This document shows positions 55,590 to 62,175 of a stretch of DNA of 64,000 bases, piece by piece; position 1 is the first letter of the stretch, and the number at the start of each line of letters is the position of its first letter. This DNA comes from Candidatus Obscuribacterales bacterium. GTDB taxonomy: Bacteria > Cyanobacteriota > Vampirovibrionia > Obscuribacterales > Obscuribacteraceae. The translations under genes and the position numbers were made by a program. Under the pieces are notes generated by a model. It searched no databases. It was not told the DNA's origin and worked only from the letters and a program-made list of their open reading frames with translations. The stretch covers positions 62,001 through 126,000 of the forward strand of contig JAIETF010000005.1 in the NCBI GenBank assembly GCA_019745415.1, written 5' to 3'.

Positions 55590-57308
55590 ATGTGGAAGCC
55601 CTTGTTCGGTGGTGAAATGGAAGCCAGGAAAACTAAAGTACTTCTGATAGAGGATGGCAAGGAGGTTGCTCCTGACCTTAAGGATGTCATTCAGACAATG
55701 GCGAACGAATTCACCATGGAGGTTACCGACCATCTGGCCGGTGGGCTCAAGGTTTTGTCGGAAGGAAATATTGATGTTGTAGTTTTGGACGTGTCGCGTT
55801 CGGGTGAGAGCGGCGATAGCCTGGCCGGCTTTTTGAAATTGAAAGAGAAAGACGCCAGTGTTCCTGTTGTCATGTTAGGGTCGGCCAAGCAAGATAAGAT
55901 GGCCAGCGAGGCAGTCAAACAAGGCGTCAAAGATTTTCTTGTCAAAGAAGAACTGGACGGTCGTCTGTTTTTGCAGTCTATTCGCTATGCCTCAACTTTG
56001 AAGAGATTGGAAGATGAGCTGAAAGCTTTGCGTGAAAAGCTTGTGCTCACCGAGAAGCAGCTGGAGATGATAGCCAATGTCGATGCCTCCACCCAGGCTC
56101 TCAGTCGTGCCGGTCTCGAGAACGCCTTGGAAGCCGAATATGTGAGAGCGCAGCGCGGCGGTTGGAATCTTGTCGCCATGCTTATCGACTGCGACGATTT
56201 TGATCGCATCAACAGGCAGTTTGGTCATGCCGTCGGTGATGTTGTGCTCAGGCAAATTACAGAGAGAATTAGAGAAACAGTTCGCCCCACCGATCATCTG
56301 GCTCGCATGGGTGGTGACGAATTTTTGCTTATCTTGCCCGATACCCGTATTGCCGAGGGCATGATGGTTGCTGAGAAAATAAGGCTTTCGGTGGGCGAGT
56401 CGCCATTGCGTCTCGCTTCTGAAACAGTGCGGGTCACCTCTAGTATTGGTGTTCTAGCTTTGCCCTATGAGTTTTGTTCAATTGAAGAAGTTCTCTCTTT
56501 AGCTCGGCTGGCTGTGCGGGAGGCCAAACTGCTCGGTAAGAATAGAGTATCCAGCGGTGAGAAGAATCCTGGTCAGGCTCCATCTCTCAGCCCCGACAAA
56601 CAAGCTCTAGATGAATTGACTGAAAAATTGCGCAAAGGCGATTGTTTCAGAGCAGTCTCTATGCCTATTTTTCACTTGGCCGACGAGAAAGTTGTCGGTT
56701 ATGAAATCTTGAGCCGTGGTCCAGCCGGAGCCTTTGAGATGCCCGACGATCTCTTCAGGGTCTCAGTGGAACATAACTTGCTAACAATTGTCGATTTGCG
56801 CTGCCTCAAGACTTGTCTGGCTGCTTGTACAGACAGCAAGTTCGACCAGAAGGCGCGTTTCCACGTCAACCTCTTCCCATCCACCATCATGGATACACCA
56901 ATTGAGCGGCTGCTTACTCTTTTCCCTCTCGAGAAACATGAAGGAACCTTCTGTATTGAGATAAGCGAACAACAGTTCATTGGCGATCCGGCTTATTTGC
57001 GGGAGCATGTTCAGGCCCTTAAAGAGCGAGGGCTCTTGGTGGCAATCGATGACGTTGGTTTCGGCAGAAGCTCACTTGAGAGTTTGATTATTCTTGAGCC
57101 AGATATCGTCAAGATCGACCGCAAATATGTCTCGGGCATTTCGGCCGACCCTGCCAAGGCCAGACTATTGAAGCGTTTGGTCAAAGTCGTAAACAGTATC
57201 GGTGCCGACTTGGTGGCCGAGGGTATCGAGTGTCGAGAAGAGCTTGATCTGCTTGTCGAAATGGGTGTTCCTTTTGGTCAAGGTTGGTATTGGGGCAAGC
57301 CGTCTTAG
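55590..57308 (+). CDS. response regulator with GGDEF and EAL domains (c-di-GMP turnover)
   Basis: 572 aa. Domain order: receiver (about 14-130) with the phospho-acceptor Asp in VVVLDVSRSGES and K in GVKDFLVKEEL; a coiled-coil linker (RLEDELKALREKL); a GGDEF domain with intact MGGDEFLLIL at 240-249 (active diguanylate cyclase expected); and an EAL domain with EIL instead of EAL (VGYEILSR), but keeping ISEQQF, DDVGFGRSS, IVKIDRK and AEGIE, so phosphodiesterase activity is plausible. A cytosolic two-way switch for c-di-GMP. ATG 55590 or ATG 55617 is the start; the latter is preceded by GGTGG. It is followed by the kinase-LRR gene after 49 nt. Confidence 0.93.
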   Translation: MWKPLFGGEMEARKTKVLLIEDGKEVAPDLKDVIQTMANEFTMEVTDHLAGGLKVLSEGNIDVVVLDVSRSGESGDSLAGFLKLKEKDASVPVVMLGSAKQDKMASEAVKQGVKDFLVKEELDGRLFLQSIRYASTLKRLEDELKALREKLVLTEKQLEMIANVDASTQALSRAGLENALEAEYVRAQRGGWNLVAMLIDCDDFDRINRQFGHAVGDVVLRQITERIRETVRPTDHLARMGGDEFLLILPDTRIAEGMMVAEKIRLSVGESPLRLASETVRVTSSIGVLALPYEFCSIEEVLSLARLAVREAKLLGKNRVSSGEKNPGQAPSLSPDKQALDELTEKLRKGDCFRAVSMPIFHLADEKVVGYEILSRGPAGAFEMPDDLFRVSVEHNLLTIVDLRCLKTCLAACTDSKFDQKARFHVNLFPSTIMDTPIERLLTLFPLEKHEGTFCIEISEQQFIGDPAYLREHVQALKERGLLVAIDDVGFGRSSLESLIILEPDIVKIDRKYVSGISADPAKARLLKRLVKVVNSIGADLVAEGIECREELDLLVEMGVPFGQGWYWGKPS

Positions 57309-57357
57309 TTGCTTGAGAGGCTTGACTTAGATATCAGGCAGACCGAGAGAGGTCGAA

Positions 57358-59352
57358 ATAGATTTTGCCAAAGACAGTGTAATAGATGGTTCTTACCGCA
57401 TAGAGTCTCTGTTGGGTCGCGGTGGAGCCGGTGATGTCTATGCTGTCACCGAAATAGCGAGCGGTCGACGCTTGGCTTTGAAAGTCTTAAACGACAAAGC
57501 TTCTCTTGTCGAAAAGAAGCGATTGCGCTTTATCAGAGAAGCTCTATTAGTGGGAAGGTTAGACCATCCTGGCGTAATCAAGATCGTTCATTGCGGTGTG
57601 CATGATGGAGCTACTCTCTATTATGTAATGTCGCTCATGGAAGGTGAGACCCTCGATAATCGCTTGGCTCGGCAGAGTCCCTTACCTCTGGCTTTGGCCA
57701 TAGATGTGGCTTTGTCGATTTTGGAAGCGCTCGCTTATGCTCACAGTAAGGGGGTAATTCATCGCGATATAAAGCCTGGCAATATTTTCTTGGTTGGGCA
57801 GGAAGACGGTCAAATCACAGCCTGTCTGCTTGATTTTGGTCTAGCGCGCACCACTGTCTCTGAAGGGGGTGAAAGCCTCGGTTTGACCGGCTCTCGTGAC
57901 GTAATTGGCACACCGGTGTATATCAGTCCCGAGCAAAGTCTTGGCCGCACTCTAGATGCCCGCTCCGATCTTTATTCTTTTGGCATTACTTTCTTTGAGA
58001 TGCTCACCGGGGCGCCACCATTTCTAGGGGATAATTTAATGGAAACCCTGGTCTTGCATCAAGAAGCGCCTATTCCCCGTCTTGCTCAATTTAATAGCGA
58101 GAGCAGATTCGATCCATTTTTAGAGGATTTTGTCTGCCGGCTGCTAGCTAAGAAAGCCGACGAACGCTATCAGTCAGCCGCTGAGGCCCTGGTTGACCTG
58201 GTCGCCTATCGGCGCAAGCTAAGAGGCGAAACATCGCCTTATGATAGCGATGCCGAAAGAGATATGGTCAGGGTTTTTTCTCGGTTGTCTTTGGTTTTGG
58301 GAGTGCTGGCCCTGCTTGGCAGTCTTTCGATACTCTTGATCTTTGGTTTGGACAAGAAAGCAGGTAAAAGTGCTGGCCGTCTGGAGACCGGTGCGTCTCT
58401 CGCCAGCAAAAGTCTTACCCCCAGTTTGGCCGACGAGGAAGCTCATAGAAGGCAGCTTAAGCAGGCGGCTCTGGCTGTAAGACCGGCAAGTTATGCGCGA
58501 CCGGCTTTGACCGGCAAGGGGGGCGGACGGGTTTATTTGCTGCCTGAGAAAATGCCTTATTCGCCGCTGTTTGTGCATGACGCTAACCTTAATGTCGAGC
58601 GCCCCCTTGCTTCTTTTAACGGTCGTTATCTGCGTGTTGGTCCGGCTGAGCATCTGGCTGTGGCTGTCAAAGCCGATCTGCTTGCCGTACCGCAATTTCT
58701 TTTAGGGTTTGATAGTGACGTACTCGATAGTCTGCATTTTCCAAAAGGGGCGCAAAATCTAGAGAGCTTTCTTCAGACCGCTTCTTATTTTAAGGGGCTA
58801 AAAAAGCTGGACCTGCAACATACCGAGGCTGACGACGGTTTGCTTTCCATTGTCGACGCTTTTACCGAGTTGCAATATCTCAATGTCCGGCACACAAAGA
58901 TTAGTGCCGAGGCTTTGAGCGGCCTGAAACGTCTATCTAAGTTGCAGACTTTGGAGTTGGCAAAGATGCAAGGCGATATCGGCTTGCTTTTGAATAAGCT
59001 TCAGCCTGGAGTAATGCAAATGCTAAGTCTGGAGGAAATGCCCCTCGATGATGCCTCTTTAGCAATGGTCGGTCGACTTAAAGGGCTGTTTTCTTTGAAG
59101 CTGATAAACTGTGGTATCGCAGGCCGCGACTTGCATGAGTTGAAGCCGCTTGCCCCGGGTCTTTTTATGCTCGACTTAAGCGGCGACCGTATCGATCCGT
59201 CCGTCTTGTCTTTTTTAGACCAGTGCAAAAATCTGAAAGATCTTAAAATCGATGTTTCACTCTGGAACGAGGCGCAGGTAGCAGAATTGAAGCAGTCTAT
59301 GGTTAATTGTCCGTCGCTCAGGCTGGTTGGGAAAGCCGGTCTCTCAAATTGA
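57358..59352 (+). CDS. Ser/Thr kinase with membrane helix and leucine-rich repeats; probable ATA start
   Basis: 664 aa if started at ATA 57358. Kinase domain: glycine loop LLGRGGAGDVY, Lys in RLALKVLN, HRDIKPGN, DFGLA, SPEQS. One membrane helix follows (LVLGVLALLGSLSILLIFGL), then an outside part of about 300 residues with leucine-rich repeats (GLKKLDLQHTEADDGLLSI, LQYLNVRHTKISAEAL, GLFSLKLINCG). The receptor-like plan suggests sensing outside and signalling inside. The track start TTG 57412 cuts the first strand: the frame upstream reads DFAKDSVIDGSYRIESLLGRG but has no ATG/GTG/TTG; the SD-like GAGAGAGG stands 5 nt before ATA GAT TTT. The next upstream stop is TAG at 57328. It may be co-transcribed with the GGDEF-EAL gene. 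Confidence 0.9.
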   Translation: MDFAKDSVIDGSYRIESLLGRGGAGDVYAVTEIASGRRLALKVLNDKASLVEKKRLRFIREALLVGRLDHPGVIKIVHCGVHDGATLYYVMSLMEGETLDNRLARQSPLPLALAIDVALSILEALAYAHSKGVIHRDIKPGNIFLVGQEDGQITACLLDFGLARTTVSEGGESLGLTGSRDVIGTPVYISPEQSLGRTLDARSDLYSFGITFFEMLTGAPPFLGDNLMETLVLHQEAPIPRLAQFNSESRFDPFLEDFVCRLLAKKADERYQSAAEALVDLVAYRRKLRGETSPYDSDAERDMVRVFSRLSLVLGVLALLGSLSILLIFGLDKKAGKSAGRLETGASLASKSLTPSLADEEAHRRQLKQAALAVRPASYARPALTGKGGGRVYLLPEKMPYSPLFVHDANLNVERPLASFNGRYLRVGPAEHLAVAVKADLLAVPQFLLGFDSDVLDSLHFPKGAQNLESFLQTASYFKGLKKLDLQHTEADDGLLSIVDAFTELQYLNVRHTKISAEALSGLKRLSKLQTLELAKMQGDIGLLLNKLQPGVMQMLSLEEMPLDDASLAMVGRLKGLFSLKLINCGIAGRDLHELKPLAPGLFMLDLSGDRIDPSVLSFLDQCKNLKDLKIDVSLWNEAQVAELKQSMVNCPSLRLVGKAGLSN

Positions 59353-60398: not shown

Positions 60399-60576
60399 AT
60401 ATCTGGGAACATATAAAGTATAGTTCAGTAAGATTGTTTTGTACTGCAGCGAGGTCTCAAAATTTATGCAAGTGCAAAAGATCTGCAGGACTAAATTACT
60501 GCAGGACTATAATACTTAAGGACTAAAGACAATCGGCAGAAAAGAAGATGAGCCGGACCATAAGATAGAGGCGCAG

Positions 60577-62175
60577 ATTGATCTTGATGCTGTTTCTCTG
60601 GGGCTTTTGCTTGTGGTTGCTTTGGCTTTGACCGTCTACAAGTTGACTTTCATATTTCTGCATCCGTTGGCAGTTTCGCCCGACCAGGCGCTCTATCTTG
60701 AGACCGGAAAGCTGATTTTGCAGGGAGAGATTCCTTATCTCGATTTCTTTGATTTCAATCTGCCCCTGATAATGTATCTAAGCGTAATACCGGTGGTGGT
60801 GGCAAAGCTGCCTGGTCTCGACTCTTTGCCTTTGCCTTTGGTTTTCAACCTAAGCATCGAATTGTTCTTCCTGGGCTCGTTTGCAGTTCTGCTGCGCTTA
60901 ATGCGGCAGAGCAAGGGCGACATCCCTGCTTCTTTCAGCTTCCCCTTCCTTCTTGTCTATGCCTGTTTCAATCAATCCCTCACTTCCGATTTCGGTCAGC
61001 GTGAGCATCTCTTCTTGCTTGCTTTCGTTCCCTGGCTGCTCTATCGAACAGTTTCGACAGCCACTGCCAATCAAACTTTTGGTCGACGGCTTGGAACGGG
61101 CTTGGCCTTCCTTGCGTCCCTCGGTCTGGCCCTTAAGCCGCAGTTTCTCATCTTTGCCTTGTTCTTGGAAGGAACGATTTATCTATGGAGAAAGGGCCGG
61201 TTATTCGATTCGGATTTGAAGTCTCTAGGACTCTTTTACCTGGCAATCAATATCAGCAGTTTTCTTTTGCCTTTTGAGGCCTGGCGCATCTATTTTCAGC
61301 AGGCTTTGCCTCTTTATTTCTATGGCTCAAGTTGGAGTGCCAAGTCTTTCATGCACTGTCTATGCGGCTTTGATTATTTCTACTATCCGATATTGCTTTT
61401 ATTTGCCGCTCTGCTTCTTTATCTAACCGGAGCCTGGCAGAGCTTGCCTCTGCTGCTTAGGCGCTTGGGTTTTGCTAATATTCTTATGGCTCTGGTGGGC
61501 TTACTTCACTATCTAGCCGGTGGTCAAGCCTGGACTTACCGTATTTTGCCTTTGCAACTCTTTGGCTTGCTTGCATTGTTTTGTCTCCTCTATGCCTTGC
61601 TTGATTCTCTTTGGTCGAGATATTGTCCCATTGAGAAGTTGCGGACCTTGATACCAGGGGCAGTGTGTCTCCTGGCTTTGTATCTGACCGGCTTTAAGAC
61701 CGTACAAGAAATTTTGGCTGTGCAGTCGGCGCCCTTGTTCAAGGCTGATGGTTGTGTTTTCGCTAATAGTCCGCTCAGTGATCTTGATTCATCTTTTCTC
61801 TCTATTTCTTCAAACAGTGCTGCCGGGCAGAGTGTATTGACTATTTCCAGCGGTATAAGACCTGCCTATCCGGCTCAGTTGCAAGCCAATCGCCAGCCGG
61901 GTAGTCGCTATCTCTATTTCCCGCTCATGATGCTTCTACAAGCTTCGCACTCTAGAAAAGATGAGGGCTGGCGAAAACATTTTCAGCGCATGGAAGAGCG
62001 AATGATTAGCGAGCTCGGTAATGACATTGTGGCAAGGAAGCCCACCTTGATTTACTTGCAGCTGGAGCCTATCGGGGCTGAGCTTTCGCGTTTCGGCTTT
62101 ATCGAGAAGTATTTGCATGGATACAGTTTGTTAGGTTATTGCGAAGGCAGTGCTGTTTATAAATTGCAGCAGTAG
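60577..62175 (+). CDS. GT-C-like polytopic membrane protein, probable ATT start
   Basis: 532 aa if started at ATT 60577. About 10-12 hydrophobic helices and a soluble C-terminal part, the layout of polyprenyl-phosphate-dependent GT-C transferases; the first outside loop carries ILQGEIPYLDFFDFNLP, where acidic residues correspond to the catalytic region. The track start TTG 60607 begins mid-helix: upstream the frame reads clearly coding (DLDAVSLGLLLVV), but no ATG/GTG/TTG occurs down to the stop TAA at 60517. GAGG (568-571) is 5 nt before ATT GAT CTT. ATC 60532, after AAGGA with 9 nt, is the longer alternative. Next gene starts right after its stop and is a paralogue. Confidence 0.85.
   Translation: MDLDAVSLGLLLVVALALTVYKLTFIFLHPLAVSPDQALYLETGKLILQGEIPYLDFFDFNLPLIMYLSVIPVVVAKLPGLDSLPLPLVFNLSIELFFLGSFAVLLRLMRQSKGDIPASFSFPFLLVYACFNQSLTSDFGQREHLFLLAFVPWLLYRTVSTATANQTFGRRLGTGLAFLASLGLALKPQFLIFALFLEGTIYLWRKGRLFDSDLKSLGLFYLAINISSFLLPFEAWRIYFQQALPLYFYGSSWSAKSFMHCLCGFDYFYYPILLLFAALLLYLTGAWQSLPLLLRRLGFANILMALVGLLHYLAGGQAWTYRILPLQLFGLLALFCLLYALLDSLWSRYCPIEKLRTLIPGAVCLLALYLTGFKTVQEILAVQSAPLFKADGCVFANSPLSDLDSSFLSISSNSAAGQSVLTISSGIRPAYPAQLQANRQPGSRYLYFPLMMLLQASHSRKDEGWRKHFQRMEERMISELGNDIVARKPTLIYLQLEPIGAELSRFGFIEKYLHGYSLLGYCEGSAVYKLQQ

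Follow-up and report, generated by a model that had tools for sequence, protein, structure and literature searches.

A kinase gene of Obscuribacteraceae that is probably translated from an AUA codon behind a strong Shine-Dalgarno sequence

The window, by which we mean the whole 64,000-nucleotide stretch of contig JAIETF010000005.1 that was analyzed, contains a gene predicted to encode a serine/threonine protein kinase followed by a transmembrane segment, which we read from the sequence, and leucine-rich repeats. Just upstream and in the same orientation is a gene predicted to encode a response regulator with GGDEF and EAL domains. This gene precedes the kinase gene in both relatives as well (G001 and the sister species, G002), and the two genes are probably one operon. 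The features of the locus are:

55590-57308, + strand: response regulator-GGDEF-EAL gene, 50 nt before the ATA at 57358
57328-57330, + strand: TAG stop in the kinase frame, kept in the sister species
57331-57333, + strand: ATA in both species, a possible alternative start with a weaker Shine-Dalgarno sequence (SD; -5.8 kcal/mol); the second-best start site
57341-57354, + strand: possible small hairpin, GACC-GAGAGA-GGTC, whose loop would hold the SD; all three folds contain it
57345-57353, + strand: SD GAGAGAGGT, pairing core GAGGT, unchanged in the sister; -8.2 kcal/mol when paired with the 16S 3' end
57358-57360, + strand: ATA (in the sister ATC), the proposed start codon, with the SD 5 nt upstream; no ATG, GTG or TTG in either species
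57358-59352, + strand: Ser/Thr protein kinase-transmembrane segment-leucine-rich-repeat protein, 664 aa
57412-57414, + strand: TTG chosen by start-codon rules and rejected here; CTT in the sister, SD -2.4 kcal/mol, β1 cut off just before the glycine loop

Read directly, the kinase frame is open from the TAG at 57328-57330 to a stop at 59350-59352. The codons after the TAG are ATA TCA GGC AGA CCG AGA GAG GTC GAA ATA GAT TTT GCC AAA GAC AGT and continue GTA ATA GAT GGT TCT TAC CGC ATA GAG TCT CTG TTG, where the last is the TTG at 57412 and the first ATG, GTG or TTG in the frame. The initial annotation had described this lack of a usual start codon, and it had quoted the upstream translation (DFAKDSVIDGSYRIESLL) correctly. 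When the protein is begun at ATA 57358, positions 1-254 of the Pkinase profile match residues 13-274; when it is begun at TTG 57412, the profile matches from position 7 only. The N-lobe is complete, with a GRGGAG glycine loop and the lysine of LALK, and the HRDIKPGN and DFG motifs are intact, as in Hanks-type Ser/Thr kinases. At the C-terminus there is a weak match to LRR_14 that is under the curated cut-off. The kinase expansion in this genome is very large, with 131 first-look candidates found with this one kinase query; the same query gave more than 300 in some family members.

We searched sixty relatives for an orthologue of the kinase gene. The scan of named genomes matched only the sister species, Candidatus Obscuribacter phosphatis EBPR_351 (G002, contig C3), and no relative was found in the viral sequence collection. 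The sister orthologue is syntenic and 89% identical and reads TAG-ATA-GCA-GGC-AGA-CCG-AGA-GAG-GTC-GAA-ATC-GAT-TTT-GCC. Its in-frame TAG, SD and spacer are the same as in the window, and the aligned start codon differs in the third base, C in place of A. The codon aligned with TTG 57412 is CTT, and the first ATG, GTG or TTG in the sister lies beyond the glycine loop, so that a start there would lose the loop. The initial annotation had proposed an alignment of orthologues as a check on its reading of ATA as the start. Run here, the alignment has ATC and not ATG at this codon, with SD and spacer unchanged and no usable canonical start, which supports that reading. It also makes a sequencing error and a start at TTG 57412 both unlikely. 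An error in the sequence or assembly that hides a true ATG might be expected of a fragmented draft genome in 118 contigs, but an independent second assembly reads ATC at this position and likewise lacks a canonical start, making this explanation extremely improbable. The change from ATA to ATC is equally expected of an internal isoleucine codon and thus is itself no proof of initiation.

The AUH codon (AUA, AUU or AUC) at the proposed start is kept between the sister species and not in the more distant G001. The G001 homologue, which is 46% identical and has the same EAL gene upstream, contains TTG and ATG codons further upstream. Including G001, ten of ten homologues from the genus and family (nine from the family) have ATG, GTG or TTG candidates upstream of the kinase domain. 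The missing start is therefore specific to the window and its sister, and an AUH start without a canonical one is an arrangement common to these two species only.

Comparison of the kinase genes of the window and G002 showed 59, 35 and 224 substitutions at codon positions 1, 2 and 3. Over the whole gene dN is 0.064 and dS is 0.75 (dN/dS of about 0.09), and over the first 30 codons from the ATH codon they are 0.030 and 0.33. Substitutions in the kinase frame are mostly synonymous from near this codon on. The frame is under purifying selection, which is strong over the whole gene. This bears on the idea that the kinase gene is decaying or has lost its 5' end and is either untranslated or begun at TTG 57412. 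That TTG is the first canonical codon of the frame, but it is CTT in the sister, has a poor SD and removes β1 of the kinase fold. The strong selection over the whole gene and the intact K, HRD and DFG motifs also speak against decay, and we consider it quite improbable.

The SD, GAGAGAGG(T) at 57345-57353, ends 5 nt from ATA 57358 when counted from its last G. To calculate pairing energies we used the anti-SD GGATCACCTCCTTT, the 16S 3' end of G002, taken for the genus. The initial annotation had called this SD excellent, and at -8.2 kcal/mol it outranks the SDs of 86% of 237 genes whose starts are conserved. An SD of this energy at usable spacing precedes the AUH codon in both species. The annotated span of 57345-57414 holds for its SD part; its end at TTG 57412 falls with the rejection of that start. 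In the window, 2.7% of all ATH codons are preceded by an equally good SD; for random positions the figure is 2.6%. The other in-frame ATH codons, at 57331, 57382 and 57400, have SDs of -5.8, -1.1 and -3.3 kcal/mol. With four such codons, the chance that one of them has an SD this good is roughly 10%, so the SD alone is only moderate evidence and conservation carries the case for ATA 57358.

The small hairpin could present the SD in its loop, which is unproven and suggested by folding. The stability of the full leader is about that of shuffled sequences (z of -0.04 and -0.80), and only a short stretch of 41 nt is more stable than its shuffles (z of -3.4). The hairpin is predicted in the sister too, where its sequence is the same and so offers no covariation.

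Initiation could also occur at another conserved near-cognate codon, the ATA at 57331 directly after the TAG, which would add nine residues. This codon is ATA in both species and has an AGAGG stretch upstream that gives -5.8 kcal/mol in both, but this SD is weaker than that of ATA 57358 and the two species differ by 2 nt in its spacing. From 57331 to 57358 there is one non-synonymous and no synonymous change. A start at 57331 would also leave the much better SD without purpose inside the coding region. Thus, we regard ATA 57331 as an unlikely start.

The genus uses +1 recoding, with a CTT TGA C site in prfB, making a frameshift into the kinase frame worth testing. There is a second gene in this genome that appears to use such a shift:

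contig C1 of this genome (G000), 61130-61840, - strand, outside the window: short release-factor-1-like paralogue with GGQ and without domain 1

A leader ORF with its own SD and ATG (MSKNCKHKVAGSLHQSGHL*) ends at CTT TAG C, and the body of the paralogue continues in the +1 frame. The paralogue and its CTT-TAG-C are kept in five genomes from three genera (G000, G002, G003, G012 and G029). Its best family match is to prfA (168 bits, and 123 to prfB), and the genomes also have an ordinary prfA and a prfB that has the classic CTT TGA C. In a 2025 survey of 8,164 genomes, TAG never occurred in the prfB site, and programmed frameshifting was not seen in prfA (PMC12421855). From these comparisons, the paralogue looks like a case of prfB-style autoregulation at the RF1-specific UAG.

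The kinase gene resembles genes with the +1 programmed frameshift of prfB (PMC12421855) in that its main frame has no canonical start, and the prfB shift is present in this genome. Unlike prfB, the kinase lacks both the CTT-stop-C site and a conserved leader ORF. We examined every ATG, GTG and TTG in the preceding 300 nt with a frame reaching the kinase start, in both species. The only qualifying out-of-frame start in the window is TTG 57309, which opens a frame overlapping the kinase start. Its homologue in the sister, however, meets a stop after a 2-nt indel, so a frameshift shared by the two species is unlikely. Sister TTGs with frames that reach the overlap are at other positions and mostly have weak SDs, the best being -6.3 kcal/mol at -82, inside the upstream EAL gene. 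Downstream of about 57376 substitutions alter amino acids in the neighboring frame and are synonymous in the kinase frame, as read by eye. No CTT-stop-C slippery motif was seen before the kinase, and a leader of the prfB type (a conserved out-of-frame ORF with its own SD and start and CTT-stop-C) was not found in the two species. Although programmed +1 shifting operates in the genus, it is very unlikely that the kinase is reached from a canonical start in another frame in the way of prfB and the release-factor paralogue.

We examined how common AUH starts are by comparing about 0.85 Mb of each genome (contigs C6, C1, C2 and C3 of G000 against the sister). This covered about 500 orthologous ORF pairs (118, 125, 47, 109 and 110; on C1 a few pairs enter twice). 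Intergenic DNA is itself 85-90% identical, so that many ORFs were flagged by simple BLASTP extension, and the screen relied on synonymous substitutions instead. The kinase was the only clear case in these pairs of synonymous-type conservation upstream of every canonical start together with an SD before an AUH codon. There is one further candidate:

60577-60579, + strand: possible second AUH start, ATT, of a membrane protein ORF at 60520-62175; SD of -5.8 kcal/mol here and -7.8 in the sister

This ATT is conserved in the sister with an SD (GAGG/GAGGAG) and is 10 codons upstream of the usual TTG at 60607. It is plausible as a second AUH start and is a weaker case than the kinase, with TTG 60607 remaining an alternative. 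A third gene without an apparent start, the release-factor ORF on contig C1, initially resembled an AUH case but is a +1 frameshift gene. Thus, the initial suggestion that AUH initiation is used more than once in this genome holds only weakly: the kinase is the single clear case, and ATT 60577 is a plausible second. We also checked infC of this genome, as the usual AUH gene, and found a TTG behind an SD. Among 237 genes on contigs C1 and C6 there are 165 ATG, 47 TTG and 25 GTG starts, an approximate share since choosing the best SD favors good SDs; TTG appears frequent.

In both species the kinase gene lacks a canonical start, the SD is conserved and the frame is under purifying selection. We therefore favor, with a probability of roughly 0.78, near-cognate initiation driven by the SD at AUA 57358 (at AUC in the sister), with low kinase output. 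In this mechanism, ordinary 30S initiation would take place, with the strong SD GAGAGAGGU pairing with the 16S tail and setting AUA in the P site. The fMet-tRNA (anticodon CAU) would pair with A and U, and the third-base mismatch would be tolerated. Work on IF3 has shown that the first two bases need Watson-Crick pairing and that non-Watson-Crick pairs at the third base are tolerated with low yield (PMC10158994). The protein would begin (M)DFAKDSVIDGSYRIESLLGRGGAGDVY, with a predicted N-terminal peptide of (M)DFAKDSVIDGSYR and presumably fMet as its first residue. Low kinase output would be an expected consequence of the AUA or AUC start, which may also depend on IF3.

The initial annotation had considered AUA initiation extremely rare in bacteria outside some organelles. 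It is not confined to organelles, since AUA starts of infC, ccpN and citZ in S. aureus have been mapped by retapamulin ribosome profiling, cvfC1 of the same species has an AUU start and the ccpN AUA start is also present in B. subtilis (PMC13009471). Output from native AUA and AUU starts in S. aureus that have strong, extended SDs is about 10-30% of that from AUG (PMC13009471). Like these genes, the kinase has a near-cognate AUH codon kept across species, a strong and close SD and no canonical alternative. Unlike them, its AUH codon differs between sisters (AUA/AUC), its product is a kinase-leucine-rich-repeat protein of Obscuribacteraceae, and its start is predicted from sequence where those of S. 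aureus are known from profiling. E. coli infC and pcnB begin with AUU (Binns and Masters 2002, cited in PMC13009471). The kinase and this pair have in common an AUH start codon, which limits expression in E. coli and would do so here; the kinase differs in using AUA/AUC rather than AUU and in not being a translation or RNA-decay gene.

With AUA and AUU starts already on record for S. aureus, the kinase start adds to a known phenomenon. Its new aspects are the gene, the lineage and a conserved start that is AUA in one species and AUC in the other. Tentatively, AUA and AUC may be interchangeable native start codons at this one gene in Obscuribacter. On this view the third base has changed since the split (dS of about 0.75) but has not become G, consistent with selection against AUG that keeps the kinase low, possibly tuned by the IF3 level and the SD-presenting hairpin. 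A near-cognate start that differs between sister species offers a natural experiment on whether selection keeps non-AUG starts. For annotation, gene finders limited to ATG, GTG and TTG would truncate the kinase at the glycine loop in the window and would lose the loop entirely in the sister. The rough frequency of AUH starts is one clear case per about 500 genes. The papers found here describe AUA/AUC initiation in E. coli and Firmicutes, and the kinase gene would extend it to a non-photosynthetic lineage that is sister to the cyanobacteria.
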